This document shows, in pieces, positions 1 to 57,623 of a stretch of 64,000 bases of DNA. The notes below the pieces were generated by a model that searched no databases, was not told where the DNA came from, and saw nothing but the letters and a program-made list of their open reading frames with translations. How positions within the stretch are numbered: position 1 is the first letter of the stretch; each line of letters starts with the position of its first letter. Position numbers and translations under genes: made by a program. The DNA comes from Ampullaceana balthica (Eukaryota; Mollusca; Gastropoda; Lymnaeidae), in NCBI GenBank assembly GCA_944989445.1, contig CALYLW010000496.1, forward strand, positions 261,810-325,809. The letters run 5' to 3'.

Positions 1-413
1 ACTCTCCCGCCCCTTACACAGGCAAGCCACACCCATTCCTAACGTGGACGGACACTCTCCCGCCCCTTACCCAGGCAAGCCACACCCATTCCTAACGTGG
101 CCGGCACTCCCCCCCCTTACCCAGGCAAGCCTCACCCATTCCTAACGTGCACGGACACTCTCCCGCCCCTTACCCAGGCAAGCCACACCCATTCCCATCG
201 TGGACGGACACTCTCCCGCCCCTTACCCAGGCAAGCCACACCCATTCCCATCGTGGACGGACACTCTCCCGCCCTTTACCCAGGCAAGCCACGCCCATTC
301 CTAACGTGGACGGACACTCTCCCGCCCCCTTACCCAGGCAAGCCACACCCATTCCTAACGTGGACGGACACTCTACCGCCCCTTACCCAGGCAAGCCACA
401 CCCATTCCTAACG
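1..413. repeat. 53-bp minisatellite, ~8 copies
   Basis: C-rich unit containing cccaggcaagccacacccat, repeated at 53-base spacing and cut by the window start. Substitutions are few. Open frames across it in both directions come from the repeat. Confidence 0.95.
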
Positions 414-777
414 TGGAATCAAATGACCATCACATCACAGGCGATACAAAAAAAATGCCAGTATGAAATACATGTACTCTAGTTTAAAATTACATAGTAT
501 GTTCATATTATTCAGCCTCACAACGATGCTGGCTAAATACATTAGACCAGGGATCCTCAAAAGACGGCACACGGCCCGAATGCGGTCGCTAATACCACCA
601 CACACATATCAACCCCAAATATCTGACAGGTATTTTTCTATGTCATTAGTCAAACTTCGCTTGGAAAGACTATCACTTTAAAGTTCATTAATAATAGTTT
701 CTGACTTTCGTTGTTGCTTTTTAGCCTAGTTTATGTATAGAATTTTTAATGAGAAACGAACATTTTTGAAATGGATT
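414..777. other. Non-repeat stretch, no gene seen
   Basis: AT-rich intronic sequence apart from a solo hAT-like end near 548. Short open frames have no recognisable content. Confidence 0.5.
548..585 (+). mobile_element. Solo hAT-like transposon end
   Basis: CAGGGATCCTCAAAAGACGG followed by a CGGCCCG..GCGG stretch resembles the common hAT terminus (CAGGG.TCCTCAAA..GCGGCCCG). No matching partner end was found within about 1 kb, so this is a truncated remnant. Confidence 0.4.
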
Positions 778-878
778 CGTTTGTGGATACCACCCCTCCC
801 CTACTAGGTGTGTGGATACCACCCCCCTACTAGGTGTGTGGATACCACCCCCCCCTACTAGGTGTGTGGACACAACTT
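778..878. repeat. 27-28-bp repeat, ~3.5 copies
   Basis: Unit tgtggataccacccc plus a variable C run and tactaggtg. The copies differ mainly in C-run length. Confidence 0.85.
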
Positions 879-1596
879 CAGGCACCTACCCCCCCCCCTT
901 CTCTTTTTTCGCGTGTAAAGCCATATGAATACTGTTAGATTAAAATAACATAAGATAAAATAACCACAACGTTCGTCCTGCCACAACTGTGACGAGACTT
1001 GGAGGCCTATCAAGTGACCAAGTCACAAGTTCCTCTGGTGACTCCTCTGGTGGGTAGCTGATGCTTTATGCCTGGTCACGGCATCACACTTCACAAACAA
1101 ACCCTCTTCCGGTTTCGGTATTGTTAGTCACTCTGGTTGGCCGATGGGATCTCCTGGCTGAAGCGAGCCATCTTATGTCGACTGGCATTCTGGACGGAAA
1201 CGGAGAGATGGCTCCCGGGACAACTTCAGGAACATTAGACGAATTAACAGAAAACAATTTTATTCGTTGCTCAGTTAAAAAATTATTATTATTACTTTTA
1301 TGGTAATACCTTATTTCAGCGCATTTTAAATATTTAGAACAAAATAAATAAAATAACTTACTCTTACTAATTTAAACACTTAAATCAGAAATAAAAAAAG
1401 TAATTAATGCTTTACAATTAGTTTTTCGTGTGTTTTGTTGAGTTTAAAGGGGGTTTTAACTTAGAAAAGGGTTTTTAAAAGCAGACTTCCAACAACAACA
1501 ATGGCGCCGTTAGTCACAGAAGACAGTGAAATATACACATTTTTATTTCGCACAAATCGTATAATAGTAATTTATTTCAACAAAAAAATAATGTCT
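879..1596. other. Unassigned intronic stretch
   Basis: A moderately GC-rich block at about 980-1250 with an 81-codon open frame is followed by AT-rich sequence. The encoded peptide matches no family I recognise. The local duplication cctctggtgactcctctggtg is visible near 1032. Confidence 0.4.
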
Positions 1597-2920
1597 TGTT
1601 ATATTTCCCCACGACTGATCCATGTCATATTTCCCCACGACTGATCCATGTCATATTTCCCCACGACTGATCCATGTCATATTTCCCCACGACTGATCCA
1701 TGCCATATTTCCCCACGACTGATCCATGTCATATTTCCCCACGACTGATCCATGCCATATTTCCCCACGACTGATCCATGTCATATTTCCCCACGACTGA
1801 TCCATGTCATATTTCCCCACAACTGATCCATGTCATATTTCCCCACGACTGATCCATGCCATATTTCCCCACGACTGATCCATGCCATATTTCCCCACGA
1901 CTGATCCATGTCATATTTCCCCACGACTGATCCATGCCATATTTCCCCACGACTGATCCATGTCATATTTCCCCACGACTGATCCATGCCATATTTCCCC
2001 ACGACTGATCCATGCCATATTTCCCCACGACTGATCCATGTCATATTTCCCCACGACTGATCCATGCCATATTTCCCCACGACTGATCCATGCCATATTT
2101 CCCCACGACTGATCCATGCCATATTTCCCCACGACTGATCCATGCCATATTTCCCCACGACTGATCCATGCCATATTTCCCCACGACTGATCCATGCCAT
2201 ATTTCCCCACGACTGATCCATGTCATATTTCCCCACGACTGATCCATGCCATATTTCCCCACGACTGATCCATGCCATATTTCCCCACGACTGATCCATG
2301 CCATATTTCCCCACGACTGATCCATGTCATATTTCCCCACGACTGATCCATGCCATATTTCCCCACGACTGATCCATGCCATATTTCCCCACGACTGATC
2401 CATGCCATATTTCCCCACGACTGATCCATGTCATATTTCCCCACGACTGATCCATGTCATATTTCCCCACGACTGATCCATGCCATATTTCCCCACGACT
2501 GATCCATGCCATATTTCCCCACGACTGATCCATGCCATATTTCCCCACGACTGATCCATGCCATATTTCCCCACGACTGATCCATGCCATATTTCCCCAC
2601 GACTGATCCATGCCATATTTCCCCACGACTGATCCATGCCATATTTCCCCACGACTGATCCATGCCATATTTCCCCACGACTGATCCATGTCATATTTCC
2701 CCACGACTGATCCATGCCATATTTCCCCACGACTGATCCATGCCATATTTCCCCACGACTGATCCATGCCATATTTCCCCACGACTGATCCATGCCATAT
2801 TTCCCCACGACTGATCCATGTCATATTTCCCCACGACTGATCCATGCCATATTTCCCCACGACTGATCCATGCCATATTTCCCCACGACTGATCCATGTT
2901 ATATTTCCCCACGACTGATC
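1597..2920. repeat. 26-bp minisatellite, ~51 copies
   Basis: Unit atatttccccacgactgatc plus catgyc. The copies are almost identical except for a T/C variant (catgTcat or catgCcat) that alternates irregularly. Because 26 is not a multiple of 3, a reading frame passes through all three phases; all minus-strand phases are open, giving spurious overlapping ORFs. Confidence 0.97.
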
Positions 2921-2990
2921 TGTGTTGTATTTTTTCTCTACTGTCCGTTGTTATATTTGTTCACAACTGATCCATGTTATATTTGTTCAC
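2921..2990. repeat. Degraded edge of the 26-bp array
   Basis: Two or three diverged units with tgttcacaact in place of ccccacgact. Divergence is concentrated at the array edge, as expected when the centre is homogenised. Confidence 0.7.
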
Positions 2991-4390
2991 AACTGCCTTT
3001 TATTCAAGACCCTCACTTGAATTAAGAAACGATTTAATATTATCACTTGATTCACTTATTAAACGAAAATAAATTACTAAAGGTATCTGACACAACATTG
3101 AGACTTTGAGATTTCAATATCAGGGTATATCAATGTTACCTCTAACCTGCGCGGTCGCGTAGCTTTCTGCCATACATTATACACTCGCATCGAATTTCTA
3201 TAAGATTAATACAGGCCTTTTTGTTTTTGCTGGATGTAAAATTTTGGACACAATATATATAATGTGCAAACGAGCTAATTTTTCAACACCAACAAACGAA
3301 GCTTAGATGTAAAATTGGTCGTAGCCATCCTCTATCGGGTTGTGAGGACCGTTCAAGTCAATAAGCTATTAGTAGAACCGTGACAAAGCGGGTGGGCACT
3401 CACACCGGCCCCTCTACTAATGACAGTTGAACACCCCGCCCCCCCCCCTTTCCCCCGCCCCGCCCGTGGGTCGCAGGTTGATGTGCTTCGTGTAAGTCCC
3501 ACTATGACACAGCTTATCTCTGTAGTAGGCCCAGTAAATTAGCCTTTCAGGTAATAGCCTTCTGGGTCCTCACATTCCAGACTTTCGTGGGTCGTTAGGA
3601 CGACACTAACCCGTGTGTGTGTGTGTGTGTGGAATACCTAGCCGCTCCCGACCCGGAGGCGGGAGAGGGTGAGGAAAGTTGTCAGCGAAAGTGGAAGTGT
3701 TTTTTTTTGGTGGGTGGGTGGGGGGGGGGCGGGGCGTTATACTATTAAATTATCTCAGTAGGGGCGTGATGATAAACTCTTCTTGCTAATATTTATGGCA
3801 GAAATGTTGTTTATAGCTGATAGTTTTAACCCAATACGGCTAACCCTTCATACACGAACTGTGGCTTGTAGTTAACATTCATTGTGCAGTTAGCTGTCAT
3901 AACTATGTACTACAATAAAAGTATTGCCGTCTTGACACAACAAACCTTACAGTTAACAACATAATTATTAATCCAAAAGTTAACGATATTTTTTCTTTCA
4001 AAACTAATTTGTGTATGACGGACATAATTCATTTTTCTTTTCTCCCCACCATAGATCGATGTTTGGGCAGTTTTTAGAAAACAATATCGTTTAGGTTTAG
4101 ACTTAGACCAACTACAAAATGTTTTAGTGGGTTAAAAAAAAACACAGTCTCCTTCGTATGCCAAATCTGGTTAAATAAAAAATATAAAAAAAGAAGTAAA
4201 TATACCTTTTCTCACCACTTGAAAGGTTGGGCGCCCCTCTCACTAACATTGTTGACTGAAAAATTCTGCAAGTTTGTGACAGAATGGCCAGGTAAACCTT
4301 GACAAGCTGACCAAAAAGCCGGAATGTGTTTTGGGATCTCAAGTCACTGTGTGACACATTGTCTGTCATTGTACTGTTACGCTCATTCAG
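2991..4390. other. Gene-free stretch with C- and G-rich runs
   Basis: Holds a MITE remnant (3132-3306), a pyrimidine block at 3433-3470, a (GT)n run near 3617-3631 and a G-rich tract at about 3708-3738 that could pair with the C-rich block. Otherwise AT-rich with no coding evidence. Confidence 0.5.
3132..3306 (+). mobile_element. MITE family M, copy 1 (degraded)
   Basis: Starts aatgttacctctaacctgcg and ends caacaaacgaagcttag, the same order as the best copy at 45239-45386. The right terminal repeat is lost. Confidence 0.6.
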
Positions 4391-4662
4391 TTTGTGTTGT
4401 CACAACTTGTACGTCACATGTCTGTATTGTCACAACTTGTACGTCACATGTCTGTATTGTCACAACTTGTACGTCACATGTCTGTATTGTCACAACTTGT
4501 ACGTCACATGTCTGTATTGTCACAACTTGTACGTCACATGTCTGTATTGTCACAACTTGTACGTCACATGTCTGTATTGTCACAACTTGTACGTCACATG
4601 TCTGTATTGTCACAACTTGTACGTCACATGTCTGTATTGTCACAACTTGTATGTCACATTTC
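4391..4662. repeat. 30-bp minisatellite, 9 copies
   Basis: Unit cacaacttgtacgtcacatg plus tctgtattgt, nearly perfect except in the first and last copies. 30 is divisible by 3, so several frames stay open; these are not genes. Confidence 0.95.
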
Positions 4663-5207
4663 TGTACGTATTTTTGTCCCAAAATGCGCAGTTATTATGT
4701 ATTATCATCTTTTTAAACTTTAACTGCTATTGAATTAATTAAGACAATTAAGTGTCATAAATAGTATATTATCCCTTGAACTATTGGGTTTTCCATTTTT
4801 AAAATGACTTTTTTAGAACTGAAACCTTTTTTTGCTTTTGTTTTGGTTATCCTGTTGCTATTGTTCCTCCCATCTACGGTATCGCTCCCCACCCCCTGGC
4901 GTGACACCACTTCCGGCATTCGGCGGGATATATTGGGGTTACCTGCGGGCCCTGATAACCTTTTCCGCAACTCCTAATTGTTACGCCCAAGAGATAATTA
5001 CCCTGTAACTCTATCTCCCAACAATTTGTTACGGCGTCTTGACTTTGTGTCACTCGCCCCAGTCCACCAGCTACAGTGTTTTTAAGTGGCGTCCTCTACC
5101 AACGTTCCCTGGAGTTTCCCAGGCGGACCGAAGCGGCCCTGTGATACTGGTGCCGTCAACATAAACAGTGATGGTCACATGAAACAACTTGTAATTGATG
5201 AATCTGC
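4663..5207. other. Unassigned stretch
   Basis: AT-rich start, then a GC-richer block (about 4860-5180) with a short minus-strand open frame of no recognisable family. It may be upstream debris of the LINE at 5343. Confidence 0.35.
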
Positions 5208-5355
5208 CACCGGTCTCTGTTGCAGTTTGTCCACATGTCTCTGTTGCAGTTTGTCTACCGGTCTCTGGTGCTGTTTGTCCACTTATCTCTGTTGCTGTTT
5301 GTCCACCGTTCTCTGTAGCAGTTTGTCCACCGGTCTCTGTGGCAGTTTGTCCACC
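5208..5355. repeat. 24-bp repeat, ~6 copies, ending at a LINE fragment
   Basis: Imperfect unit cggtctctgttgcagtttgt plus ccac. The last unit (cagtttgtccac) continues in frame into the LINE reading frame, so the array may have grown from the truncated LINE edge. Confidence 0.85.
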
Positions 5356-6011
5356 AGTACGGCATGGAAATCAATGCAGAAAAGACCAAGGTCATGGCAA
5401 ATAGTAAATTCACAAGCGAGATTCAGATAAACGAGCAAAAACTCGAAGAAGTCTCCACCTTCAAGTATCTAGGGGCCATAATATCCGACGAAGGCTCAAA
5501 GCCAGAAATTCTTGCCAGAGTAGCCCAAACAATGGCAGCATTGAACAAATTAAAGCACATCTGACAAAGTAAGAAACTCTCCCTGAGATCAAAGATCCGG
5601 CTAATGCGCTCTCTGGCGATGTCGGTCTTTTTGTATGGTTGTGAGGCTTGGACGCTCACTGCAGACCTCCAAAGAAGAATCAAAGCGCTAGAGATGAGAT
5701 GTTTCAGAAAGATATTGAACATCTCCTACACAGCGCACATCACACACGAAGCGGTCCGCAACACAATAAGTACTGTCATTGGCCCCTACGATGACCTACT
5801 CACATCAATTAAGAAGAGGAAATTACGATGGTACGGACACGTGACAAGAACTGGAGGTCTCGCAATAACCATATTACAAGGCACAGTCCAGGGAGGAAGG
5901 AAAAGAGGCAGACAAAAGAAGAGATGGGAGGACGATATCAAAGAGTGGACCGGTCTGTCATTCAGCGACTCTCAAAGGGCAGCACAGGACCGTGACAAAT
6001 GGCGTGTGTAA
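5343..6011 (+). pseudogene. Non-LTR retrotransposon (LINE) ORF2 C-terminal fragment
   Basis: Open frame with one in-frame TGA (5562-5564) separating two parts in the same phase. Part one has GMEINAEKTKVM and KYLGAIISDEGS, typical of the end of a LINE reverse transcriptase. Part two has SVFLYGCEAWTL, RCFRKIL, KRKLRWYGHVTR, GGRKRGRQKKRWEDD and AAQDRDKW, the usual C-terminal tail of invertebrate LINE ORF2. The catalytic RT motifs and endonuclease are missing, so this is a 5'-truncated dead copy. The stop most likely replaces a Trp codon. The clade cannot be fixed from this fragment. Confidence 0.88.
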
Positions 6012-6350: not shown

Positions 6351-6825
6351 CCCGGTACTCCTTACACCTTTAAGCCGGTACTCCTTACACCTTTAAGCCG
6401 GTACTCCTTACACCTTTAAGCTGGTACTCCTTACACCTTTAAGTCGGTACTCCTTACACCTTTAAGCCGGTACTCCTTACACCTTTAAGCTGGTACTCCT
6501 TACACCTTTAAGCCGGTACTCCTTACACCTTTAAGCCGGTACTCCTTACTCCTTTTAGCCGGTACTCCTTACACCTTTAAGCCGGTACTTATTACACCTG
6601 TTTAGCCGGTACTCCTTACACCTTTAAGCCGGTACTTATTACACCTGTTTAGCCGGTACTCCTTACACCCTTAAGCCGGTACTTATTACACCTTTTAGCC
6701 GGTACTCCTTACACCTTTAAGCCGGTACTTATTACACCTTTTTAGCCGGTACTCCTTACACTTACACCTTCAAGCTGGTACTTATTACACCTTTTAGCCG
6801 GTACTCCTTACACCTTTTATGCCGG
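6351..6825. repeat. 23-bp minisatellite, ~20 copies
   Basis: Unit gccggtactccttacacctt plus taa. The 3' half alternates with a variant unit (ggtacttattacacctgttt), giving a two-unit higher-order pattern. Confidence 0.93.
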
Positions 6826-7285: not shown

Positions 7286-8105
7286 GGGGATTTATGGCCC
7301 TTGGATTGACTCTGGCAGGGATTTATGGCCCTTGGATTGACTCTGGCAGGGATATATGGCCCTTGGATTGACTGTCTGGGATATATGGCCCTTGGATTGA
7401 CTGTCTGGGATATATGGCCCTTGGATTGACTGTCTGGGATATATGGCCCTTGGATTGACTCTGGCAGGGATTTATGGCCCTTGGATTGACTCTGGCAGGG
7501 ATTTATGGCCCTTGGATTGACTCTGTCAGGGATATATGACCCTTGGATTGACTCTGGCAGGGATATATGGCCCTTGGATTGACTCTGTCAGGGATATATG
7601 ACCCTTGGATTGACTCTGGCAGGGATATATGGCCCTTGGATTGACTCTGGCAGGGATTTATGGCCCTTGGATTGACTCTGGCAGGGATATATGGCCCTTG
7701 GATTGACTCTGGCAGGGATTTATGGCCCTTGGATTGACTCTGGCAGGGATTTATCGTCCTTGAATTTACTCTGTCAGGGATATATGGCCCTTGGATTGAC
7801 TCTGTTCAGGGATATATGGCCCTTGGATTGACTGTCTGGGATATATGACCCTTGGATTGACTGTCTGGGATATATGGCCCTTGGATTGACTGTCTGGGAT
7901 ATATCGTCCTTGAATTTACTCTGTCAGGGATATATGGCCCTTGGATTGACTCTGTTCAGGGATATATGGCCCTTGGATTGACTGTCTGGGATATATGACC
8001 CTTGGATTGACTGTCTGGGATATATCGTCCTTGAATGTACTCTGTCAGGGATATATGGCCCTTGGATTGACTCTGTTCAGGGATGTGTGGTCCTTGGATA
8101 GTCTC
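7286..8105. repeat. 28-31-bp minisatellite, ~27 copies
   Basis: Unit ggcccttggattgactctgg plus cagggatatat. Length variants (tgtctggg versus tctggcaggg) occur in blocks, and a segment with atcgtccttgaatttactct recurs three times, which shows higher-order duplication. Confidence 0.93.
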
Positions 8106-8241
8106 TGTAGCATGTATCTGAAATTTCATAACAATGGTTGGAACGTTTTATAAATTAAAGCAGTTGGGTTGAGGTTACTGAGTTCATGAAAAAAACGTTC
8201 ATGGTCATAAATGGATAGGAATCTTTGAAATAAATAAAAGG

Positions 8242-8512
8242 CTATATATGTTATGTAAACAACATACTACAGGCTGTATACGTTATGTAAACAACACACT
8301 AGAGGCTGTATACGTTATGTAAACAACATACTACAGGCTGTCTACGTTATGTAAACAACATACTACAGGCTGTATACGTTATGTAAACAACATACTACAG
8401 GCTGTATATGTTATGTAAACAACATACTACAGGCTGTATACGTTATATAAACAACATACTACAGGCTGTATACGTTATGTAAACAACATACTACAGGCTG
8501 TATACGTTATAT
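8242..8512. repeat. 32-bp minisatellite, ~8.5 copies
   Basis: Unit gttatgtaaacaacatacta plus caggctgtatac, nearly perfect. Confidence 0.94.
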
Positions 8513-8649
8513 AAAAGCTTTGCAGTGAGTTCTACCCATGTAAAATTAATTTCCAACTAATCCGTACAGTCCATGCTCTTATCATTCTTAATTACCGGAT
8601 TTACCGAGATTAAAATGTTTAAGCCTCTAGTAGTTTCCCATGGAGCAGT

Positions 8650-10185: not shown

Positions 10186-10430
10186 TGTTACAACGGATTG
10201 TGTCTGTTACAACGAATTGTGTCTGTTACAACGGACTGTATCTCAGTTACAACGGATTTCATCTCTGTTACAACGGACTGTGGCTCTGTCACAACGGACT
10301 GTGTCTATGCTACAACGGAATGTGTCTCTGTTACAAAGGTCTGTGTCTCTGTTACAACGGTCTGTGTCTCTGTTATAACGATATCTGTCTCTGTCACAAA
10401 GGACTGTGTCTCTATTACAACGAACTGTGT
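10186..10430. repeat. 19-21-bp repeat, ~12 copies
   Basis: Unit tctgttacaacggactgtgt with many substitutions. Short open frames on both strands across it come from the repeat. Confidence 0.88.
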
Positions 10431-11139
10431 TCATAATTTTGATCAATTTCACAACTACTTGTGCCCTGTAATTTATCTTTGCCCCAATTCCTAATGGGGT
10501 TATTTGTTCTCGGCTGGGGGCGTTGGTATAAGAAAGTTCAACTGTTCACATCCGCTTGTTTGTTTCCCGAGTTCGAGTCACAGCTCATCCCCGTTAGGAG
10601 ACGCTTGGAATGGGAGGAATGCCATGGGAATTTATTTCATTCACTCAGGGGAGTGACATGTTTAGTGGGGGTGGAGGTGCTACAGGAGGGGGGATCAGTT
10701 GAGGCATGAAGTTAAAGGGGGGGGGGAGGGGGGAGTAACTGCAGTTTGAGTTGTGTCGCTCAAATCACTTGATTTGATCCGCACACAAACATAAGGGTCG
10801 TAGGCGTAAACTCGCTTAATGGTCGTAGGCGTAAACTCGCTTAATGGTCGCAGGCATAGACTAACTTGACGGGTCCAGTGTCAAAGGTTTTAGAAAATTC
10901 CTTAAAGAAATGTAAAGGGTGCCTATATTATCAGTAACACAGATAGTTCATTTAAATGTATTCTCCTCAGTCAGGTCTCTTAGAATGGATATAATCATAG
11001 CATAATATAACGATAGAATCATGGACATTTTTAAGTCTAATTAGCGTTAGACAATGTTATTTTGTTGGGAGCTCTCCTCTTCCTGCTGGAGCCATGGAAA
11101 AAAACAACATTGCACTGGTTATATACTCACCACTGCACA
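10431..11139. other. Unassigned stretch with a short repeat and G run
   Basis: Includes a G-rich tract at about 10718-10735 and a 25-bp unit (gtcgtaggcgtaaactcgct plus taatg) in about 2.5 copies at 10795-10860. Confidence 0.5.
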
Positions 11140-12130
11140 TAACGTACACTCAGCCCTGCACTAAAATTTCACTCAGCCCTGCATTAAACTTTCACTCAGC
11201 CCTGCACTTAAACTTTCACTCAGCCCTACACTAAACATTCACTCAGACCCTGCACTAAATATTCACTCAGACCTGCACTAAATATTCACTCAGACCTGCA
11301 CTAAATATTCACTCAGACCTGCACTAAACTATTCACTCAGACCTGCACTAAATATTCACTCAGACCTGCACTAAACTTTCACTCAGACCTGCACTAAACT
11401 ATTCACTCAGACCTGCACTAAACTTTCACTCAGACCTGCACTAAACATTCACTCAGACCTGCACTAAACATTCACTCAGACCTGCACTAAACATTCACTC
11501 AGACCTGCACTAAACATTCACTCAGACCTGCACTAAATATTCACTCAGACCTGCACTAAACTATTCACTCAGACCTGCACTAAACTTTCACTCAGACCTG
11601 CACTAAACTATTCACTCAGACCTGCACTAAACATTCACTCAGACCTGCACTAAACTTTCACTCAGACCTGCACTAAACATTCACTCAGACCCTGCACTAA
11701 ACATTCACTCAGACCCTGCACTAAACATTCACTCAGACCTGCACTAAACATTCACTCAGACCCTGCACTAAACATTCACTCAGACCCTGCACTAAACTAT
11801 TCACTCAGACCCTGCACTAAACTTTCACTCAGACCTGCACTAAACATTCACTCAGACCCTGCACTAAACTTTCACTCAGCCCTGCACTAAACTTTCACTC
11901 AGACCCTGCACTAAACTTTCACTCAGCCCTGCACTAAACATTCACTCAGCCCTGCACTAAACTTTCACTCAGCCCTGCACTAAACTTGCACTCAGGCCTG
12001 CACTAAACTTTCACTCAGCCATGACACTAAACATACAGTTGGCCATGCACTAAACTTTCACTCGGCCATGAGCCATGAACTAAACTTACAGTTAGCCATG
12101 CACTAAACTTATAGTTGGCCCTGCATTAAA
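11140..12130. repeat. 23-24-bp minisatellite, ~42 copies
   Basis: Unit cctgcactaaacattcactc plus aga. Variants (aaatatt, aaacttt, aaactatt, gaccctg) occur in runs, with diverged copies at both ends. Confidence 0.95.
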
Positions 12131-12344: not shown

Positions 12345-12865
12345 GGGTTAATGCAGTTGGCGTAGCAAGGGATAATGCAGTTTGCGTAGCTAGGGTTAAT
12401 GCATTGGTGTAGCTAGGGTTAATGCATTGGGTGTAGCTAGGGTTAATGCATTGGTGTAGCTAGGGTCCATGCATTGGTGTAGCTAGGGTTAATGCATTGG
12501 GTGTAGCTAGGGTTAATGCATTGGTGTAGCTACGGTTCATGCATTGGTGTAGCTAGGGAAAATGCATTGGTGTAGCTAGGGTTAATGCATTGGTGTAGCT
12601 AGGGATAATGCATTGGTGTAGCTAGAGTTAATGCATTGGTGTAGCTAGAGTTAATGCATTGGTGTAGCTAGGGAATATGCATTGGTGTAGCAAGGGATAA
12701 TGCAGTTTGCGTAGCTAGGGTTAATGCATTGGTGTAGCTAGGGTTAAGGCATTGGTGTAGCTAGGGTTAATGCATTGGTGTAGCTAGGGTTAATGCAGTT
12801 GGTGTAGCTAGGGTTAATGCCTTGGTGTAGCTAGGGTTAATGCAGGTGGCGTAGCAAGGGTTAAT
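12345..12865. repeat. 23-24-bp minisatellite, ~22 copies
   Basis: Unit tagctagggttaatgcattg plus gtg. It includes a TAGGGTTA core resembling the telomere hexamer, but the unit is otherwise unrelated. Confidence 0.93.
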
Positions 12866-13536
12866 GGTGCAGTCGTATCAGGAACAATATTTCTCCACCG
12901 CCCCATCAAAAAAATGCGTTTCTCTGAACACGCAACACTCAATATTTTTACATTGTCCCCCGGGACGAACAGCCACCTCAGCTCGGCGCCCACCCCCCTT
13001 TTCCCTCTCGTTCTACGTCCATAAATGTATCAACAAAGATGTTAAGTAGAGAAGTGTTTTTGCATGAGGTTAACTGTGTTTAAAGTTGTGAACCGTGTGA
13101 GCTGTGTATGACGAAGGAAACTATTAATGGTATATGGCGTGTCTGTGTAAACAAAACAATGATAATTAGAATGATCATAAACTATACCATCCCCTCCCAC
13201 ACAATAATGATTACAAAACTGATACTTGTAACAATCATGAGTTATTTGGACAACGTTCAGTAACAGCTGTTGTGATTTTTTTTTAAATTTCTAAAACTTA
13301 GTTAAAATAGTGAGACTTCAGTGCTTCGCACCATTTTAAAATAGAGAGACTTCCGTGCTTCTCACCAAATGAGCAGACGACAGTCGCGCCTTCCAACAAG
13401 TATAAGCCTATGAAATGTGGTTGTAGAATATATGACTGTGCACGCGTGAATCATAGCCCGCACGTGTTCGGCGGGTTTAACTCTTCGTTCTCAGCTGTTG
13501 TTAGTGCTGTCCCTTTGTTGGCGGTCCGAATATGTG
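12866..13536. other. Unassigned stretch
   Basis: No coding evidence. A short local repeat near 13307-13360 (gagactt.cgtgctt.caccat type) occurs twice. Confidence 0.4.
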
Positions 13537-14135
13537 TCAGAGGTAAATTGGATGTTGGTGATATGTGTGGGCTGTAAATTAGTGGTGTGTCAGAGGTAAA
13601 TTGGATGTTGGTGATATGTGTGGGCTGTAAATTAGTGGTGTGACTGGTGTAAATTGGATGTTGGTGATATGTGTGGGCTGTAAATTAGTGGTGTAAATTG
13701 GATATTGGTTATATGTGTGGGCTGTAAATTAATGGTGTAAATTGGATGTTGGTGATATGTGTGGGCTGTAAATTAGTGGTGTAAATTGGATGTTGGTGAT
13801 ATGTGTGGGCTGTAAATTAATGTTGTAAATTGGATGTTGGTGATATGTGTGGGCTGTAAATTAGTGGTGTAAATTGGATGTTGGTGATATGTGTGGGCTG
13901 TAAATTAGTGGTGTAAATTGGATGTTGGTGATATGTGTGGGCTGTAAATTAATGGTGTAAATTGGATGTTGGTGATATGTGTGGGCTGTAAATTAGTGGT
14001 GTAAATTGGATATTGGTGATATGTGTGGGCTGTAAATTAGTGGTGTAAATTGGATGTTGGTGATATGTGTGGGCTGTAAATTAATGGTGTAAATTGGATG
14101 TTGGTGATATGTGTGGGCTGTAAATTAGCTTGTAA
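13537..14135. repeat. 44-bp minisatellite, ~13 copies
   Basis: Unit includes gtaaattggatgttggtgat and atgtgtgggctgtaaattag. The first copies carry an extra insertion, the others are nearly identical. Confidence 0.95.
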
Positions 14136-14984
14136 ATTTGTAAAAGTGTGTGTAGTGTAACGTTTTCAACTGTGTGTATGAGTAGTCAGAAAATTAATTG
14201 TGTTTTATTTTAATTTTATCTTGTGACTTGCACTGTACATTTGAACAAACAAGGCTGTTTTAAACCGAAAACATTACTGACATAAAACTGGCTTGAACTA
14301 TCTCTTCTTCATCCTGGGTGCTCTCTCTTACATTTCTGACAATCCAACTGACGATAGAGATAGGCACTGGTCTCTGCCTTGTCTGTCTCTCACGCTCCTG
14401 GCTGGGCCGAATACGAGGACATAGCTGCAAAATGTAAAAAAATCAGCGCTGTTATAACAACATAAAACTCATAACGAAAAATCTTCCGGTCCCTGCTCCT
14501 GTTATCGCGGTTAAAAAAAAAGTTTTTGAAAAATTGAACAACGGAACAGTAGCACTCTTTGATTAATTCCCTCGTACACCCCTCGTGAAACAATCTTTAG
14601 CCCAGGAGGGCGAATTTAAAACCGTTTCGTGGCTATGAATCTTTCGTCTACTCAGCTTCTTTCACCTTTGCTTCCGTGACCTTTAAACGTGTAGTTTTAG
14701 TTTTAAAGAAAACCCATTTGTACATCACTTGGATAAAAGTTGCACTTTTTAACGGAATATCATGAACATAAGATTATATCTTAAATTGGTACTTGTTTTT
14801 TTTATCCGACCACCGAAAACGAATTATTTATTACTTTAGTATCAACTGTTGGAAACTCCGCGATACTTAGGCTATTACTACTAGATGGCTATGGTCACCG
14901 TGGACTTCTCCCACTTACGACGATAAAGATTGAATAAATTAGTATTAAAATCATTAATCTAGTTTTATTACTGTACTAGGTTGT
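14136..14984. other. AT-rich stretch, nothing recognised
   Basis: The 67-codon minus-strand open frame at 14390-14593 has no recognisable content. Confidence 0.4.
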
Positions 14985-16115: not shown

Positions 16116-16169
16116 TGTGGACCACACCGTAGTTCCCATTCTCCGAAAAACGAGTCTCTGGGTCTTCAA

Positions 16170-20665: not shown

Positions 20666-20667
20666 AT

Positions 20668-42920: not shown

Positions 42921-42980
42921 GTACGTTTGCTCTGGCCACTCTTATTTATATGGTCAAGATAGAGACAAGCAGGTTTGCTC

Positions 42981-44118: not shown

Positions 44119-44441
44119 GATGGATAATGTTGTATAGGATTGAACCTAAATAAACAAGTACATGTCCCAAGATTTAGGGACAATATGTGGATTATGTTGA
44201 ATAGGATTAAACCTAAATAAACAAGTACATGTCCCAAGATTTAGGGACAATATGTGGATTATGTTGAATAGGATTAAACCTAAATAAACAAGTACATGTC
44301 CCAAGATTTAGGGACAATATGTGGATTATGTTGAATAGGATTAAACCTAAATAAACAAGTACATGTCCCAAGATTTAGGGACAATATGTGGATTATGTTG
44401 AATAGGATTAAACCTAAATAAACCACTACATGTACCAAGAT
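44119..44441. repeat. 67-bp repeat, ~4.5 copies, split by an insertion
   Basis: Unit includes attatgttgaataggattaa, acctaaataaacaagtacat and gtcccaagatttagggacaa. One more partial copy at 44858-44918 shows that about 0.4 kb was inserted into the array. Confidence 0.93.
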
Positions 44442-44918: not shown

Positions 44919-45238
44919 CAAGGAAATAAAAGAATGACATTAATCACACAAAACCCTAAAAATGACTTTCAAAAACCTAACAATGTTAATGATCAAAATA
45001 AAACACCAATTACAAATATCCAAATTATCAAAAATAAAATTACAGCTCTAACAAACAAAGAACCAGACCTAATTATAAGTTCACAAACCAGCTTAACCAT
45101 AATATTTATAATTATACTAAGATAGTAATAATCAAAAATATATAACAAAAACATTATTAAATACATTTAAAACTCTATTAAAATGTCAAAACTAGCCATA
45201 AAACATGGAGTATATAAAACTATTTTGCCTTTGCTAAC
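44919..45238. other. A-rich intron stretch
   Basis: Strongly A/T-rich with no structure apart from short A-rich repeats. Confidence 0.4.
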
Positions 45239-45386
45239 AATGTTCCCTTTAACCTGCACGGCTGCGCGGATATCTGACAGATGCAGTGCAGCATTTTAGA
45301 ATTACAGCGCATCAAATTTTATAAAATAATGCACAAAAAATGGATGCAACTTTGCACACGGACCAACGAACCTTAGAGGGAACATT
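45239..45386 (+). mobile_element. MITE family M, copy 4 (best preserved, 148 bp)
   Basis: Terminal inverted repeats AATGTTCCCTTTAA and TTAGAGGGAACATT match at 13 of 14 positions. The interior has cctgcacggctgcgcgg, ggatatctgacagatgcag, tgcacaaaaaatggatgc and accaacgaacc, shared with the other copies. A 32-bp array starts 3 bp later. Confidence 0.8.
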
Positions 45387-45388
45387 TT

Positions 45389-45774
45389 GTGCTGCCTGTG
45401 CAATACAAAGCTGTTTGCCTGTGCTACATGTACAATACAAAGCTGTTTACCTGTGCTACCTGTACAATACAAAGCTGTTTGCCTGTGCTACATGTTCAAT
45501 ACAAAGCTGTTTACCTGTGCTACCTGTACAATACAAAGCTGTTTACCTGTGCTACATGTACAAATACAAAGCTGTTTACCTGTGCTACATGTACAATACA
45601 AAGCTGTTTACCTGTGCTACATGTACAATACAAAGCTGTTTACCTGTGCTACATGTACAATACAAAGCTGTTTACCTGTGCTACATGTACAATACAAAGC
45701 TGTTTACCTGTGCTACCTGTACAATACAAAGCTGTTTACCTGTGCTACCTGTACAATACAAAGCTATTTTGTCT
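45389..45774. repeat. 32-bp minisatellite, ~12 copies, abutting exon C acceptor
   Basis: Unit ctgtttacctgtgctacatg plus tacaatacaaag. The last unit ends about 10 bases before the exon. Open Cys/Leu-rich frames in all three phases run into exon C but are repeat products. Confidence 0.95.
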
Positions 45775-45784
45775 CTGTCCAAAG

Positions 45785-45960
45785 GTATCTCCCAGAAGTA
45801 CAGAAAGATGGAAGCCTTCATCAGATCAACAATCCGGAGGTGGATGTGGATGTAACAAAGTCCAACACTGTGGTCAGTAGACAGAAGATCCAACTTCAGC
45901 TCATCACCACCAAACTCCACAACGCCTACAGCGGGGAGGATGTGGACTGGATTGATACAG
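45785..45960 (+). CDS. GPC4/6: Glypican exon C: membrane-proximal core
   Basis: The single first base completes the Arg codon from exon B, giving RYLPEVQKDG, then NNPEVDVDVTKS, a helical RQKIQLQLITTKLHNAY and SGEDVDWID. This matches the GPC4/6 order (RYL, NNPEV.VD, NAY.G.DVD) at the end of the globular core. The acceptor is gtctctgtccaaag and the donor acag|gttagt; the last base is the first of a Glu codon finished by exon D. A 32-bp minisatellite runs up to about 10 bp before the acceptor, so the branch point must lie inside or next to repeat sequence. Confidence 0.94.
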
Positions 45961-46170
45961 GTTAGTCTGGCCTTGACCTTAATAAGGTTGCCTGGTCTTG
46001 ACCTTAATAACAACCACTAACAACAGGTTGGCCTGGCCTTGACCTAGATAACAAGCATTAATAACAGGTTATCCTGGCCTTGACCTTATCAGCTTCTTAA
46101 AAAGATGTTACATTATATTACTATTATCTTAACATCTGCAATGTAAATGACTTTTTTTTCTTTTTTATTA

Positions 46171-47182: not shown

Positions 47183-47560
47183 TGTTGGCCACACATACAC
47201 CTCATGTTGGCCACACATGCATCTCATGTTGGCCACACATGCATCTCATGTTGGCCACACATACATCTCATGTTGGCCACACATGCATCTCATGTTGGCC
47301 ACACATGCATCTCATGTTGGCCACACATGCATCTCATGTTGGCCACACATGCATCTCATGTTGGCCACACATACACCTCATGTTGGCCACACATACACCT
47401 CATGTTGGCCACACATGCATCTCATGTTGGCCACACATGCATCTCATGTTGGCCACACATGCATCTCATGTTGGCCACACATGCATCTCATGTTGGCCAC
47501 ACATGCATCTCATGTTGGCCACACATGCATCTCATGTTGGCCACACATGCATCTCATGTT
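47183..47560. repeat. 22-bp minisatellite, ~17 copies
   Basis: Unit tgttggccacacatgcatct plus ca, with catacacct variants in three copies. His/Cys-rich open frames are artefacts. Confidence 0.95.
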
Positions 47561-47993
47561 ACGCCACTCGCACACATCCCCTGGCACCAGGAACATGACA
47601 GGTAGCATCTACTTAACGGGCCGTCATCCATCAGTACAAAGCACTAACTCGATGGCGCGTTGTTTTAACAGTTGGTGCCTTCTAATGTTCTTCAGACTAC
47701 TTGCCGCTCTTATTACCACGTCAACCACATCCGATAGAAGCTCAGCTGGCTAAATATCAACTCGAGGCTCACTGCTTCTTTCTCATGTCAAGGCCGCGAA
47801 CTGCCACCATGAACCTGCTGTCTCGTCTCTTTAAAGAGAAATGAGATTTGTAGAACATAGAACTTTATATCTGGAATGTAGAACTTTTTACCTGGAATTC
47901 TGTGGGGTGGGAGCTCACAATTATTCCATTTATTTTGGGGGGCTATACGGACTGTTTACCACAGATAACATGGAGTTCAGAGGTCATGTCATT
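47561..47993. other. Spacer, nothing recognised
   Basis: Mixed composition with no coding evidence apart from frames continuing out of the array. Confidence 0.4.
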
Positions 47994-49138
47994 GTCATCA
48001 AGCAGACTGTCATCAAGCAGACTGTCATCAAGCAGACTGTCATCAAGCAGACTGTCATCAAGCAGACTGTCATCAAGCAGACTGTCATCAAGCAGACTGT
48101 CATCAAGCAGACTGTCATCAAGCAGACTGTCATCAAGCAGACTGACATCAAGCAGACTGTCATCAAGCAGACTGTCATCAAGCAGACTGACATCAAGCAG
48201 ACTGTCATCAAGCAGACTGTCATCAAGCAGACTGTCATCAAGCAGACTGTCATCAAGCAGACTGTCATCAAGCAGACTGTCATCAAGCAGACTGTCATCA
48301 AGCAGACTGTCATCAAGCAGACTGTCATCAAGCAGACTGACATCAAGCAGACTGACATCAAGCAGACTGACATCAAGCAGACTGACATCAAGCAGACTGA
48401 CATCAAGCAGACTGTCATCAAGCAGACTGTCATCAAGCAGACTGTCATCAAGCAGACTGTCATCAAGCAGACTGTCATCAAGCAGACTGTCATCAAGCAG
48501 ACTGTCATCAAGCAGACTGTCATCAAGCAGACTGTCATAAAGCAGACTGTCATCAAGCAGACTGACATCAAGCAGACTGTCATCAAGCAGACTGTCATCA
48601 AGCAGACTGACATCAAGCAGACTGTCATCAAGCAGACTGTCATCAAGCAGACTGACATCAAGCAGACTGTCATCAAGCAGACTGTCATCAAGCAGACTGT
48701 CATCAAGCAGACTGTCATCAAGCAGACTGTCATCAAGCAGACTGACATCAAGCAGACTGTCATCAAGCAGACTGTCATCAAGCAGACTGTCATCAAGCAG
48801 ACTGACATCAAGCTGACTGACATCAAGCAGACTGACATCAAGCAGACTGTCATCAAGCAGACTGTCATCAAGCAGACTGTCATCAAGCAGACTGACATCA
48901 AGCAGACTGTCATCAAGCAGACTGTCATCAAGCAGACTGACATCAAGCAGACTGTCATCAAGCAGACTGTCATCAAGCAGACTGTCATCAAGCAGACTGT
49001 CATCAAGCAGACTGTCATCAAGCAGACTGTCATCAAGCAGACTGTCATCAAGCAGACTGACATCAAGCAGACTGTCATCAAGCAGACTGTCATCAAGCAG
49101 GCTGACATCAAGCAGACTGTCATCAAGCAGACTGTCAT
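47994..49138. repeat. 15-bp minisatellite, ~76 copies
   Basis: Unit catcaagcagactgt with a single T/A alternative (actgTcat or actgAcat). The other changes are rare: cataaag at 48537, agctgactg at about 48813, and aggctgac near 49100. Because 15 is divisible by 3, five of six frames are open over the unit. This yields 435- and 389-codon frames on opposite strands; neither is credible as a gene. Confidence 0.97.
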
Positions 49139-49919
49139 TAACACTTGAAGCATATCAGGTAGTGGTGGATTGGATCTTTCAGAAAAGCCTGCCTAGAATG
49201 TTCTGAAAACCTGCCTAGAATGTTCTGCTTTATGGCTTCCAGAGGAGATGTTTTTTTTATTGCATTGACTAATTTGGTCATGTTTTGATCAGGGCCTAAA
49301 GATTACGAGCATGTGTAAGCTGACTGTGTAAATTGGTGTAACTACTTTTGACGGTGTGAGGCTCTGTCACCAATGCCAACCAGAAATTTCTGTTAATCTC
49401 AACTCAAAGGATTCCTCACTAAAACCATCGAACTTGTGCATAGAGCTACTATTGAATACCACTTGTAAAGATAACATTAACCTTATGTAGGATGACCACA
49501 AATTAATTAACCACCCTATCGTTTAAATGCTTTCTCTTTACCATGATATAATGTCAAGTCCAAGGTGTTTACTATACAGCACCGAATCCCTTGGTAATGT
49601 GTGTGCAGCTATTTGTTGCTGATGAATCTGGACACATTTGTTTGGCAGTAGAAATTTGGTCAGGGGTGGACAGGTCTTGGATGACATTGTGAGATACTTT
49701 CTCTGTAAAAGAAAGTAGGGTCAACCATGTCTATAAAACTGAATGTAACACTGTTCTGAGAGTGCGTGTGTCAAGTCTTGGTATCTTGAGGTATTGAATG
49801 TATAAACTATCAATGGTTTTTAATTGGATCATTATATAGTGCTGTACTTAGAAGATCAATTGTTTTGTGACTTGCAATGTATGGCCTGAAACTACTGTTG
49901 GCGTGACTTCTTTCTTTTG
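49139..49919. other. 3' flank, nothing recognised
   Basis: Unique moderately AT-rich sequence. A short duplication (gcctagaatgttctg) lies near 49190-49225. Confidence 0.4.
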
Positions 49920-50432
49920 GTCAGCGTATCTGAAAGCCAAGACTGTTGTGTTCAGCGTATCTGATAGCCAGGGCTGTTGTGGTCAGCGTATCTGATAGCC
50001 AGGGCTGTTGCGGTCAGCGATAGCCAGGGCTGTTGAGGTCAGCGTATCTGATAGCCAGGGCTGTTGCGGTCAGCGATAGCCAGGGCTGTTGTGGTCAGCG
50101 TATCTGATAGCCAGGGCTGTTGTAGTCAGTGTATCTGATAGCCAGGGCTGTTGTGGTCAGTGTATCTGATAGCCAGGGCTGTTGTGGTCAGCGTATCTGA
50201 TAGCCAGGGCTGTTGTAGTCAGTGTATCTGATAGCCAGGGCTGTTGTGTTCAGCGTATCTGATAGCCAGGGCTGTTGTGGGCAGCGTATCTGATTGCCAG
50301 GGCTGTTGTGGTCAGCATATCTGATAGCCAGGGCTGTTGTGGTCAGCGTATCTGATAGCCAGGGCTGTTGTGGTCAGCGTATCTGATAGCCAGGGCTGTT
50401 GTGGTCAGCGTGTCTGATAGCCAGGGCTGTCG
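49920..50432. repeat. 31-bp minisatellite, ~17 copies
   Basis: Unit gtatctgatagccagggctg plus ttgtggtcagc. Two shorter units lack gtatctg. Confidence 0.94.
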
Positions 50433-51486: not shown

Positions 51487-51596
51487 TCCTTTTTAAATAA
51501 AAGTTCACTTAATAGAAAGAAGGGGCACAAATTTAATGTAGAAATGAGCAAAATACTCTTTGCAATTGGCTGCCACATGCCTCAAAGACAAAGTGC

Positions 51597-51968
51597 TGTG
51601 AGGTGTCATGGCCACCAGGTGCTGTGAGGTGCCGTACCCACCAGACGCTGTGAGGTGCCGTGCCAACCAGGTGCTGTAAGGGTTCGTTGGTCCGTGTGCA
51701 AAGTAAAAAAGCTTGTGTGCAAAAGTTGCACAGTATCCATTTTTTGTGTAATATTTTACAAAATTTGCTGCGCCGTAGCTCTAAACTGCTGCGCGGCATG
51801 TGTCAGATATCTGCGCAGGTGCGCAGCTTAAAGGGAACATTGGTGCCCACCAGGCGCTGTGAGGTGCCGTGCCCACCAGGTGCTGTGAGGTGCCGTGCCC
51901 ACCAGGCGCTGTGAGGTGCCGTGCCCACCAGGTGCTGTGAGGTGCCGTGTCCACCTGGTGCTGTGAGG
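51597..51968. repeat. 26-bp minisatellite, ~8 copies, interrupted by a MITE
   Basis: Unit gtgctgtgaggtgccgtgcc plus caccag. Units lie at 51597-51677 and 51843-51968 with MITE family M between them. Confidence 0.93.
51678..51841 (-). mobile_element. MITE family M, copy 5, inserted in the 26-bp array
   Basis: From aagggttcgttggtccgtgt through tgcgcagcttaaagggaaca and tt. Array units on both sides mark the insertion limits. The outer bases of one terminal repeat are missing. Confidence 0.75.
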
Positions 51969-52649
51969 TGCCATGTCTAGACCCATTGACCCTGTGGCGA
52001 TTCCATCATCCCAGTGCAGTCTAACTTAAATGGCAGGCAAGTCACACAACGTGCCTCACTTCTCATTCACATCCTTACAAGAAAAGTTGATTCAAAGTGT
52101 TTCAATCATTTCAAATCTCCCTACTCACTTGCAAGATAATTATTTCACTTCTGGGAAAAGAACATTATTATCCTCTGTGACACAATTCTAGGGGAGGTAA
52201 ATGTTATTGTTTCAACAATTTTGTTTCTGGACCTGGTGCAAAATATTTGAAGGGAAAAAAAAAGCAAATGCTTAAAATGATATCAATTTACCCAACAACA
52301 CTATGAACAATTTCATTCTGCCCATTTCATAGAAAATATTATCATTCAATAGATCACCAATAACTTATTTTGTGTTAACTACCTCAACTTTAAAAGAGCC
52401 TTTAATTAATTTTATTTAAAGGTAAGTTTCACATTTAAACGATTCAATATCATTATTACTGGTCTGGTCGTTGACAATCGCTTGCCTTTTGAGATATTAT
52501 TTTTAAGTAATAACATTTATAACATAACGAAATACTCTTCTTAAAATTTCCTTGTTTCTTTATTGTAGCATTGTGTTGGATTATTTCAGTTTACCTGCCA
52601 ACAAAACAATCAAATATTTATTTCAATTGTGTGGATGACAGTTCGACTA
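51969..52649. other. AT-rich stretch, nothing recognised
   Basis: No structure or coding evidence seen. Confidence 0.4.
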
Positions 52650-52858
52650 CAGTGTACAGTTCCAACATGGGTCCATACAGTGTACAGTTCCAACATGGGT
52701 CCATACACTGTACAGTTCCAACATGGGTTCATGTTAGTGTCTGTTCCAACATGGGTCCATACACTGTACAGTTCCAACATGGGTTCATGTTAGTGTCTGT
52801 TCCAACATGGGTCCATACAGTGTACAGTTCCAACATCGGTTCATGTTAGTGTCTGTTC
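52650..52858. repeat. 28-bp repeat, ~7 copies, two alternating unit types
   Basis: Unit tgtacagttccaacatgggt plus ccatacag, alternating with a ttcatgttagtgtctgttcc form. Confidence 0.9.
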
Positions 52859-52944
52859 CTTTTGTTCCATGTCCCATCTTTTTCTTGCTTCCTTGTCTGT
52901 GTGCCTTGTAGTGACCACATGTTTACCATAAATCATCTTTAGTA

Positions 52945-53261: not shown

Positions 53262-53745
53262 GTCTTAAGAGAACCAGCTGTGTACTGCTAACATAGAAGT
53301 ACCAGCTGTGTACTGCTAGCATAGAAGTACCAGCTGTGTACTGCTAGCATAGAAGTACCAGCTGTGTACTGCTAGCATAGAAGTACCAGCTGTGTACTAC
53401 TAGCATAGAAGTACCAGCTGTGTACTACTAGCACAGAAGTACCAGCTGTGAACTACTAGTACTAGCATAGAAGTACCAGCTGTGTACTGCTAGCATAGAA
53501 GTACCAGCTGTGTTCTACTAGCAAAGAAGTACCAATTGTGAACTACTAGTACTAGCATAGAAGTACCAGCTGTGTACTGCTAGCATAGAAGTACCAGCTG
53601 TGTACTGCTAGCATAGAAGTACCAGCTGTGTACTACTAGCATAGAAGTACCAGCTGTGAACTACTAGTACTAGCATAGCAGTACCAGCTGTGTACTACTA
53701 GCATAGAAGTACAGCTGTGTACTTCTAGCATAGAAATAGCAGTTA
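53262..53745. repeat. 28-bp minisatellite, ~16 copies
   Basis: Unit agctgtgtactgctagcata plus gaagtacc. A longer variant with actactagtactagc recurs three times. The palindromes GCTAGC and ACTAGT make the unit partly self-complementary. Confidence 0.94.
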
Positions 53746-56195: not shown

Positions 56196-56338
56196 TTATG
56201 ATCAGTTAAGGTGTCATTGCTGATCAGTTGTCATTATGATCAGTTAAGGTGTCATTGCTGATCAGTTGTCATTATGATCAGTTAAGGTGTCATTGCTGAT
56301 CAGTTGTCATTATGATCAGTTAAGGTGTCATTGCTAAG
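56196..56338. repeat. 38-bp repeat, ~3.5 copies
   Basis: Unit ttatgatcagttaaggtgtc plus attgctgatcagttgtca; TGATCA palindrome twice per unit. Confidence 0.92.
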
Positions 56339-56634
56339 CATGGTGTGATTATATATGCCAAAAGATGGTTTTTAAAAAAAGGAATGTCGTGACTTGATCA
56401 TTGGGCACATATCTTCTGTGTAACACGATGTGTGATGTTTGTAATGTTAACTCATGAATTCATTTCTTTTCAAAAATGGAAATTAAATATTTGTTAGTAA
56501 CATGCAGTCTTCAGCACTTCATTGCATGCTTAGAAATAGTTGACGAAAATAACGCTTAAGATTTGATTGTATGATTATAATAACTTTATTTGTGTAAAAC
56601 TCCTTAAAGGAACAGTATATCATGTATATATATA

Positions 56635-56919
56635 TTATGTATTAGCAGCGTGGGAAACTTTCAAATGTAAGCTCTTACATTTATTGTCATTTTCATGAAA
56701 GAACTTTTTTTGTGTTTTAAAAAATTGCTCCTGCAGATTATGATCCAATAAAAATTCAATAAAACATCGGAAGCGTATTATTTCAGGATATTTGTCTTGA
56801 ATTAAGACAAAGACATCCACTGGAAGACCTGTTGCAGATATTGCATAAATCAACTTTGCCCTGTTTAAATTATTGACTCTAATAATGCAAACAGCACGTA
56901 AAGCACAATTTCTTACCAA
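56635..56919 (-). pseudogene. Possible coding remnant, function unknown
   Basis: A 94-codon minus-strand frame with mixed protein-like composition (AISATGLPVDVFVLIQDKYP; FRCFIEFLLDHNLQEQFF). I recognise no family, there is no good splice or start context, and random AT-rich ORFs of this length occur. It may belong with the remnant at 57841-58400. Confidence 0.15.
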
Positions 56920-57317
56920 AAAAAACCTGATGGTCTGAAAAGGAGTTACCGATAGTTTATACAGAATCTGAAGTGTAATGGTGCATTAACACCACATCCA
57001 GCATGATGTAAGAACAACACCAGTATACAAAACTGCATTTAAAACAATTGTTGCAAGAATGTTAATTTAATTAAACTTCAATTGGAATATTTTAATGTCT
57101 AAAATGGGAAATGAAAGTAGAGTCTGACCACCTGCTGTGTGAAATAGAAAAACTTGTATTATTTATGGTGAATGCCAATGGTCGAATTATTGAATTGCTA
57201 AGGTAGATAGAAATATTTGCAGCTGCAATTCTAAGTCAAACTAATCGCTTTTCACCAGTTCATTATGCTTTTAAAAGGTTTAAAATCCATTTCAGCATTA
57301 ATGAAATTATTTAGGAT

Positions 57318-57623
57318 ATCTTATACTTATACCACAGGATCTATGTAAAGGTATTCAATTATCTTATACCACAGGATCTATGTAAAGGTATTCAATTATC
57401 TTATACCACAGGATCTATGTAAAGGTATTCAATTATCTTATACCACAGGATCTATGTAAAGGTATTCAATTATCTTACACCACAGGATCTATGTAAAGGT
57501 ATTCAATTATCTTACACCACAGGATCTATGTAAAGGTATTCAATTATCTTACACCACAGGAGCTATGTAAAGGTATTCAATTATCTTATACCACAGGATC
57601 TATGTAAAGGTATTCAATTAATA
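57318..57623. repeat. 37-bp minisatellite, ~8 copies
   Basis: Unit atcttataccacaggatcta plus tgtaaaggtattcaatt, nearly perfect. It is the last minisatellite in the window. Confidence 0.95.

Follow-up and report, generated by a model that had tools for sequence, protein, structure and literature searches.

Minisatellites are head-to-tail arrays of units of about 10-100 bp, extending over about 0.1-20 kb, and their birth is rarely caught in numbers. We analyzed 64,000 bp from the pond snail Ampullaceana balthica (contig 496, positions 261,810-325,809; below, "the window" is the whole of this stretch), which carry the last four exons of a predicted glypican-4/6 gene and are crowded with such arrays. 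We think it very probable that the introns and 3' flank of this gene hold dozens of independently born minisatellites, and that the locus is a dense sample of a genome-wide habit.

Tandem repeats at high density have been described in other animals. In the slug Deroceras laeve, a further 28.39% of the genome was classed as tandem repeats with Tandem Repeats Finder (TRF), which raised total repeats to about 72%, and long (>100 kb) GC-rich tandem repeats lie chiefly at chromosome ends (PMC12506671). A. balthica resembles D. laeve in being a pulmonate with comparable tandem-repeat content, and the slug's 28.39% thus provides a precedent in pulmonates for a high total. However, whereas the slug's repeats include those long GC-rich tracts, the arrays described here are short and interspersed and have unrelated units; the repeat section of the slug paper contains no analysis of unit length or unit relatedness (PMC12506671). 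In amphioxus, "mirage" minisatellites are tandem duplications over exon-intron boundaries in several genes, with units homogenised inside clusters and cluster boundaries excluded (PMC3087553). As in the mirages, an exon-intron boundary is duplicated at our locus (the donor of exon C in the array at 45959-46088 and, imperfectly, that of exon B). Unlike the mirages, which were described gene by gene in a chordate, the arrays here sit in a mollusc gene whose best glypican match is from Lymnaea stagnalis (80% identity, among the best 120 of 914 matches).

Elsewhere the reported totals are lower. Tandem repeats with units of 1-50 bp make up 1.3%, 2.4% and 2.9% of the genomes of Daphnia, Drosophila and honeybee, and units of 7-50 bp account for 26-84% of tandem repeats in the 12 genomes of that survey (PMC3152781). 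In contrast, and with detection settings other than those used for the arthropods, our sample of A. balthica has about 21.6% in units of at least 10 bp and 1.0% in shorter ones. Batillaria attramentaria has 7.38% simple repeats (PMC10382545). For the genomes of Arion, Meghimatium, Achatina, Laevicaulis and Biomphalaria sudanica, the passages available contain no tandem-repeat totals, and a limited search of the open-licence literature turned up no snail in which single-locus minisatellites are described at such a density.

We detected arrays with TRF at standard settings, and our main set consists of merged arrays with a period of at least 10 bp. The 108 TRF rows in the window merge into 71 arrays, of which 67 have a unit of 10 bp or more; these 67 contain 26,544 of the 64,000 bases (41.5%), and arrays of 15-76-bp units account for 25,772 bases. 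The original prediction, made from the sequence by eye, put the number at about 50, close to the 48 arrays (7.50 per 10 kb, 39.2% coverage) that remain under a stricter rule (period 10-100, at least three copies, score at least 100). Its estimate of about 28 kb was slightly high, although the dense coverage is real. Simulated 64-kb sequences, ten from an order-1 and ten from an order-3 Markov model, yielded 0-2 arrays and at most 80 array bases each. The window arrays fit the head-to-tail and unit-size definition of minisatellites, with a median unit of 28 bp (10th-90th percentile 20-52), a median copy number of 6.2 (maximum 88) and a median length of 224 bp (longest 4,487 bp, shortest below 0.1 kb). 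Every 4-kb bin up to 52 kb has 988-4,000 array bases, and the last three bins have 827, 491 and 0. The final array with a period of at least 10 stops at 57,726; TRF finds none from 57,731 to 64,000, and dispersed repeats dominate this array-free last 6 kb. The arrays below are minisatellites called by TRF, with further evidence named where it was used.

1-417: unit 53 bp, 7.9 copies; cut by the window start
1601-2920: unit 26 bp, 50.8 copies, 98% match
4393-4666: unit 30 bp, 9.1 copies
5207-5355: unit 24 bp, 6.2 copies
6352-6825: unit 23 bp, 20.2 copies
7287-8108: unit 31 bp, 26.9 copies
8239-8515: unit 32 bp, 8.7 copies
10186-10430: unit 21 bp, 11.9 copies
11133-12130: unit 23 bp, 39.8 copies; alternative readings 47 and 70
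12345-12866: unit 23 bp, 22.4 copies
13530-14128: unit 44 bp, 11 copies
15640-16119: unit 29 bp, 16.2 copies
16162-16353: unit 22 bp, 8.7 copies
21514-21909: unit 36 bp, 11 copies
22850-23235: unit 28 bp, 13.8 copies; 48 bp 3' of glypican exon A
25853-26229: unit 23 bp, 16.3 copies
26686-27194: related pair, units 35 bp (7.3 copies) and 41 bp (5.6 copies); also unit comparison
27586-29808: unit 42 bp, 53 copies
31205-31626: unit 23 bp, 18.5 copies
31732-36218: unit 51 bp, 88 copies, 99% match
38465-39602: unit 71 bp, 16 copies, 99% match
39706-40233: unit about 76 bp, 7 copies; includes part of a miniature inverted-repeat transposable element (MITE)-like element; also alignment
40299-40588: unit 26 bp, 10.9 copies
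40824-41432: unit 40 bp, 15.2 copies
42980-43344: unit 21 bp, 17.1 copies; 60 bp 3' of glypican exon B
44121-44441: unit 67 bp, 4.8 copies
45388-45769: unit 32 bp, 11.9 copies; stops 16 bp 5' of glypican exon C
45959-46088: four units; takes in the splice donor of exon C and the 2 exon bases before it
47183-47560: unit 22 bp, 17.2 copies
47993-49138: unit 15 bp, 76.4 copies
49918-50430: unit 31 bp, 16.9 copies
51593-51972: single 26-bp array interrupted by a MITE-like element (51682-51842); also unit comparison
52648-52859: unit 28/56 bp
53273-53742: unit 28 bp, 16.2 copies
56196-56335: unit 38 bp, 3.7 copies
57321-57620: unit 37 bp, 8.1 copies, 98% match

The abundance of arrays is not peculiar to this locus. 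We scanned 16 stretches elsewhere in the assembly (1,097,344,711 bp in 3,363 contigs), numbered L009-L023 and L028 and totalling 143,318 non-N bases. All 16 contain arrays, at 5.4 per 10 kb; on average 21.6% of the sequence lies in arrays with units of at least 10 bp (bootstrap 12.3-32.0%; median 14.1%), and three stretches (44.8%, 59.2% and 62.5%) exceed the window mean. Five simulated sequences of the same size gave 34-205 array bases. Under two stricter rules the ratio of window to sample is kept (39.2% versus 19.9%, and 35.9% versus 18.6%), with at least one array in 15 and 13 of the 16 stretches. The arrays themselves are alike inside and outside the window, with median units of 28 and 29 bp and a median match of 91% in both, and in the sample units of at least 10 bp outweigh shorter ones about 20 to 1. 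The presence of arrays in all 16 stretches, at a mean of 21.6%, favors a genome-wide process over a local one. The original prediction, which had called for such a comparison, allowed for either a local or a genome-wide process. The second finds support in this sample, where arrays are everywhere and their mean is about half that of the window, and a local excess may be added on top. No local cause has to be invoked: for its species the locus is a rich example but not an exceptional one, and what stands out is the genome.

The units are mostly unrelated, as had been proposed. Eight of the 2,211 pairs of window units score at least 30, versus two of 2,211 with shuffled units, and the eight comprise neighboring arrays (four), AAC-rich arrays (three) and one G-rich pair; merging them reduces the 67 arrays to 60 lineages. 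The arrays at 51593 and 51843, for example, are one array with the MITE-like element between its parts. On a larger scale, 172 units from 257 kb fall into 159 clusters (9 of 181 arrays were set aside as low-complexity), so that the units do not collapse into a few families. Apart from one 46-bp unit common to L015 and L016, which are themselves two copies of one dispersed sequence, the unit groups with members at more than one locus are low-complexity, weak or short and AT-rich. Searches of the assembly gave the same picture for two large arrays. A 34-base piece of the 51-bp unit (31732-36218) has all 82 of its exact matches inside its own array, and a 27-base piece of the 42-bp unit (27586-29808), allowing up to two mismatches, has all 48 inside its own; these counts are lower bounds, and very common words were skipped.

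So many arrays could also come from a few repeat families, satellites or transposon-borne, that had spread, and three observations point that way: the 46-bp unit shared by L015 and L016, four AAC-rich arrays that are all part of one repeated composite, and the MITE-like element, three of whose four window copies sit at an array. However, the units mostly do not cluster and the two that were searched for occur at this locus only. In addition, dispersed segments beside window arrays lack an array in the other copies examined, and coverage by arrays and by dispersed repeats is inversely related over 27 tiles (rho -0.56, p 0.0025), by a measure that sees only dispersed families with a second copy in the 257 kb. 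We therefore consider family spread very improbable. The spread of a single shared satellite is rejected on the clustering together with the two single-locus searches, and the 159 clusters among 172 units, with each of the two units searched confined to one locus, likewise led us to reject a satellite DNA family, in which one monomer occupies many loci. Arrays as internal parts of Helitrons or similar transposons were rejected as well, since the other copies examined, which cover few elements, have no arrays. As an aside, the sequence shared by L015 (1791-4024) and L016 (9-4425), whose pieces are 78% and 93% identical, includes a 60-bp array with about six units in L015 and about three in L016, the latter interrupted by an insertion of about 2.4 kb.

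Some arrays retain traces of how they may have begun. The features that bear on this are the following.

22672-22802, + strand: glypican exon A; acceptor ending in acag, donor gtaagc; PF01153 E 2.3e-14, Dally-like E 1.8e-9
42625-42920, + strand: glypican exon B; donor gtacgt; PF01153 E 1.2e-25
45785-45960, + strand: glypican exon C; donor gttagt; tblastn with six animal glypicans, 54-69% identity
46381-46700, + strand: glypican exon D, the last coding exon, with the stop; Ser-Gly run and hydrophobic tail; joined frame open
39633-39749, + strand: MITE-like dispersed element, aligned with four other copies; ends set by eye
42902-42981, + strand: imperfect 32-bp duplication over the junction of exon B and its donor (copies 42902-42933 and 42950-42981)

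The MITE-like element at 39633 is flanked by an 8-bp target duplication, TTGATCAG (39625-39632 and 39750-39757), a length that may point to a hAT element. The unit of the adjoining array (39706-40233) consists of the 3' end of the element, then TTGATCAG, then flank ending in a C run, and no such tandem repetition is seen in the element's four other copies. A 76-bp unit made of element end, target duplication and flank indicates duplication in situ, after the insertion. The element, with ends resembling terminal inverted repeats, was also seen at 29912-30059, about 45238-45386 (- strand) and 51682-51842, and in L021 (6746-6911). Of the four copies in the window, three are in contact with a minisatellite or at most about 2 bp from one, and the L021 copy is not.

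Splice junctions have also been duplicated. The array at 45959-46088 opens two bases before the end of exon C and takes in the donor, and all four of its units begin AGGTT. The imperfect duplication at the exon B donor, 48 bp on, has a local score of 39 versus a maximum of 23 in 2000 shuffles. Two of the three splice donors in the window are thus involved in tandem duplication. This may simply follow from the high array density, as junction arrays are expected where two-fifths of the sequence is array, and no significant attraction of arrays to exon edges was found (median distance 74.5 bp for eight edges versus 189.5 bp from random array-free positions, p 0.053).

Breakpoints were compared in 57 clean arrays, free of indels and with a match of 93% or more, pooled from the window and the fetched stretches. 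The overhang beyond whole units is 7 bp or less in 24 of the 57, versus 14.8 expected (p 0.005), an excess consistent with some of the arrays having been born with little or no homology. In the short-repeat origin of Haber and Louis, direct repeats of 5-10 bp flank the unit; the excess of small overhangs, a modest signal, agrees with duplication at short homologies and subsequent expansion, but 19 of the 57 overhangs are of 0-4 bp, less than those 5-10. We suspect that a local stretch of about 15-80 bp, be it plain intron, a transposon end or an exon-intron junction, now and then undergoes tandem duplication, that some of these events would join breakpoints sharing few or no bases, and that the duplicate could then expand and homogenise through slippage or unequal exchange between adjacent units. 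The repeated independent origin that had been claimed for the arrays is supported to this extent, by the clustering, by the two units found in their own arrays only, and by the one unit visibly cut from local DNA.

Once formed, the arrays appear to turn over locally. In 22 of 31 arrays the units at the edges match the consensus less well than those in the center (p 0.011), and in 25 of 31 neighboring units resemble each other more than distant ones do (p 3e-5), indicating local turnover with sheltered edges, as in the amphioxus mirages. Old arrays are also present: relaxed TRF on array-free DNA gave 67 rows and 3,907 bases, versus 11-23 rows and 480-974 bases in eight simulations, and this excess consists of decayed arrays. 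In the four glypican exons, arrays overlap 2 of 923 bases (placement p 0.016); selection presumably keeps the coding exons almost free of them. This near absence from exons, together with the presence of arrays in every stretch sampled, also speaks against false tandem copies made in assembly, as does the variation among arrays in unit, variants, decay and edge divergence. One array does consist of 88 near-identical copies, and the arrays are known here from the assembly alone, but an assembly artefact seems to us scarcely credible.

Ordinary birth combined with weak deletion or selection in the introns and intergenic DNA of this lineage could also have filled the locus. Such passive build-up would account for the wide range of array ages (the middle half of the 67 window arrays have 86-95.5% match) and for the decayed arrays in excess of simulation. 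It sits less well with the large arrays that are nearly perfect (88 copies of 51 bp and 16 of 71 bp, both 99%), whose growth looks recent. Units shorter than 10 bp might be expected to pile up too, yet they occupy only 1.0% of the outside sample and 3.7% of the window. We regard passive build-up as a real possibility, though not the one we favor. A more specific idea, which we hold only tentatively and think rather unlikely, is that short tandem duplications arise at a raised rate throughout the genome, in a mild mutator state confined to loops of about 15-80 bp. Altered processing of flaps or loops in replication, for example, would be such a state; microsatellites would stay scarce, and minisatellites would come to make up about a fifth of the genome.

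Several points weigh against independent birth as a habit of the whole genome. The assembly searches covered 2 of the 67 window units, with patterns that would miss diverged relatives. The outside sample comprises 15 of twenty randomly drawn contigs, those of at least 50 kb, read at the fixed position 50,001 (the other five fell short of it), and one stretch hand-picked from a second random list (when it is excluded, 75 arrays cover 20.8% of 143,318 bases, Ns counted), and its coverage ranges widely over the 16 places, from 0.8% to 62.5%. Overhangs exceed 7 bp in 33 of the 57 clean arrays; the signal is modest, with p 0.12, 0.23 and 0.02 at 7 bp for the single copy-number classes, and is not significant in the window arrays alone (Kolmogorov-Smirnov p 0.55 for 45 arrays and 0.13 for 25). 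We infer that births, and not slow losses, set the density of arrays, but one genome cannot separate the two. The earlier claim that some process keeps making minisatellites, which implies a high birth rate, goes beyond these data; slow loss would look alike.

The window is also about twice as rich as the sampled average (Mann-Whitney p 0.013 for coverage and 0.0008 for array number, comparing six 10-kb tiles of 1-60,000, with the array-free last 4 kb excluded), and something local may add to the genome-wide level. A hot spot, in which this gene or its chromatin makes minisatellites and the remaining genome is ordinary, would fit that twofold excess and the neighborhood, where the 10 kb directly upstream have 12 arrays and 39% coverage and array number averages 9.25 per 10 kb over the four stretches read from contig 496 beyond the window. 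However, the three other stretches of contig 496 have 12%, 15% and 24%, all 16 stretches elsewhere have arrays at a mean of 21.6%, and three of these exceed the window mean. We consider a hot spot of this kind improbable.

If the sample of 143 kb is representative, 5.4 arrays per 10 kb over 1.1 Gb would amount to about 590,000 arrays, mostly single-locus. Such a genome would serve as a natural inventory of the breakpoints and ages of duplications, and would let birth be told from spread. It also carries a warning, as family-based repeat annotation alone can miss a fifth of a genome.

The gene that hosts the arrays is, as judged from its PF01153 domain and its closest similarity to GPC6, a glypican-4/6. 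Its last four exons lie on the + strand with proper splice signals and a single open frame to the stop, and exons A and B are separated by an intron of 19.8 kb. The Lymnaea match mentioned above is the glypican-6 of that species, which is placed in Hygrophila, Panpulmonata; of those 120 matches it is the closest to the 307-residue product, and exon D aligns with L. stagnalis P0121. Among the same best matches, other gastropod glypicans of varying lengths are 50-68% identical and that of Branchiostoma lanceolatum 54%. Physella acuta, a pond snail too, has a glypican just 50% identical, possibly a different gene copy. No upstream glypican exon was found in 1-22671 with six relatives as queries (five with the upstream part), where matches up to E 1 fell only at the repeat arrays of 7.3-8.1 kb or at 16.2 kb. 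We read this as a single intron of at least 22.7 kb, or as exons too diverged. A Pfam search of long translations (stops as X; + strand, 13000-22992) gave nothing; it missed even the known exon A, so its silence is not evidence that domains are absent. No match came from Rfam at gathering thresholds.

Other repeats share the window with the arrays. Between 17080 and 20660, four head-to-tail copies, spaced by 1033, 928 and 837 bp, form a tandem transposon-like composite; its unit starts with ACTAGGGGCAAGTACCCGG, followed by a long irregular AAC repeat and a TA-rich end. One dispersed family, or several related ones, lies at 23594-24062, 24406-24935, 41433-41994, 59328-59777, 60630-61333 and 62181-62709, with up to 15 overlapping matches in the 257 kb. 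The copy at 41433 starts exactly at the end of an array, and the other copies examined have no array there. Two frame remnants resemble the reverse transcriptase of long interspersed nuclear elements: one at 61653-62000 (- strand), recognized by eye and without a Pfam match, and one at 5358-6008 (+ strand), part of which matches RVT_1 at no better than E 0.025 and the rest of which was recognized by eye.

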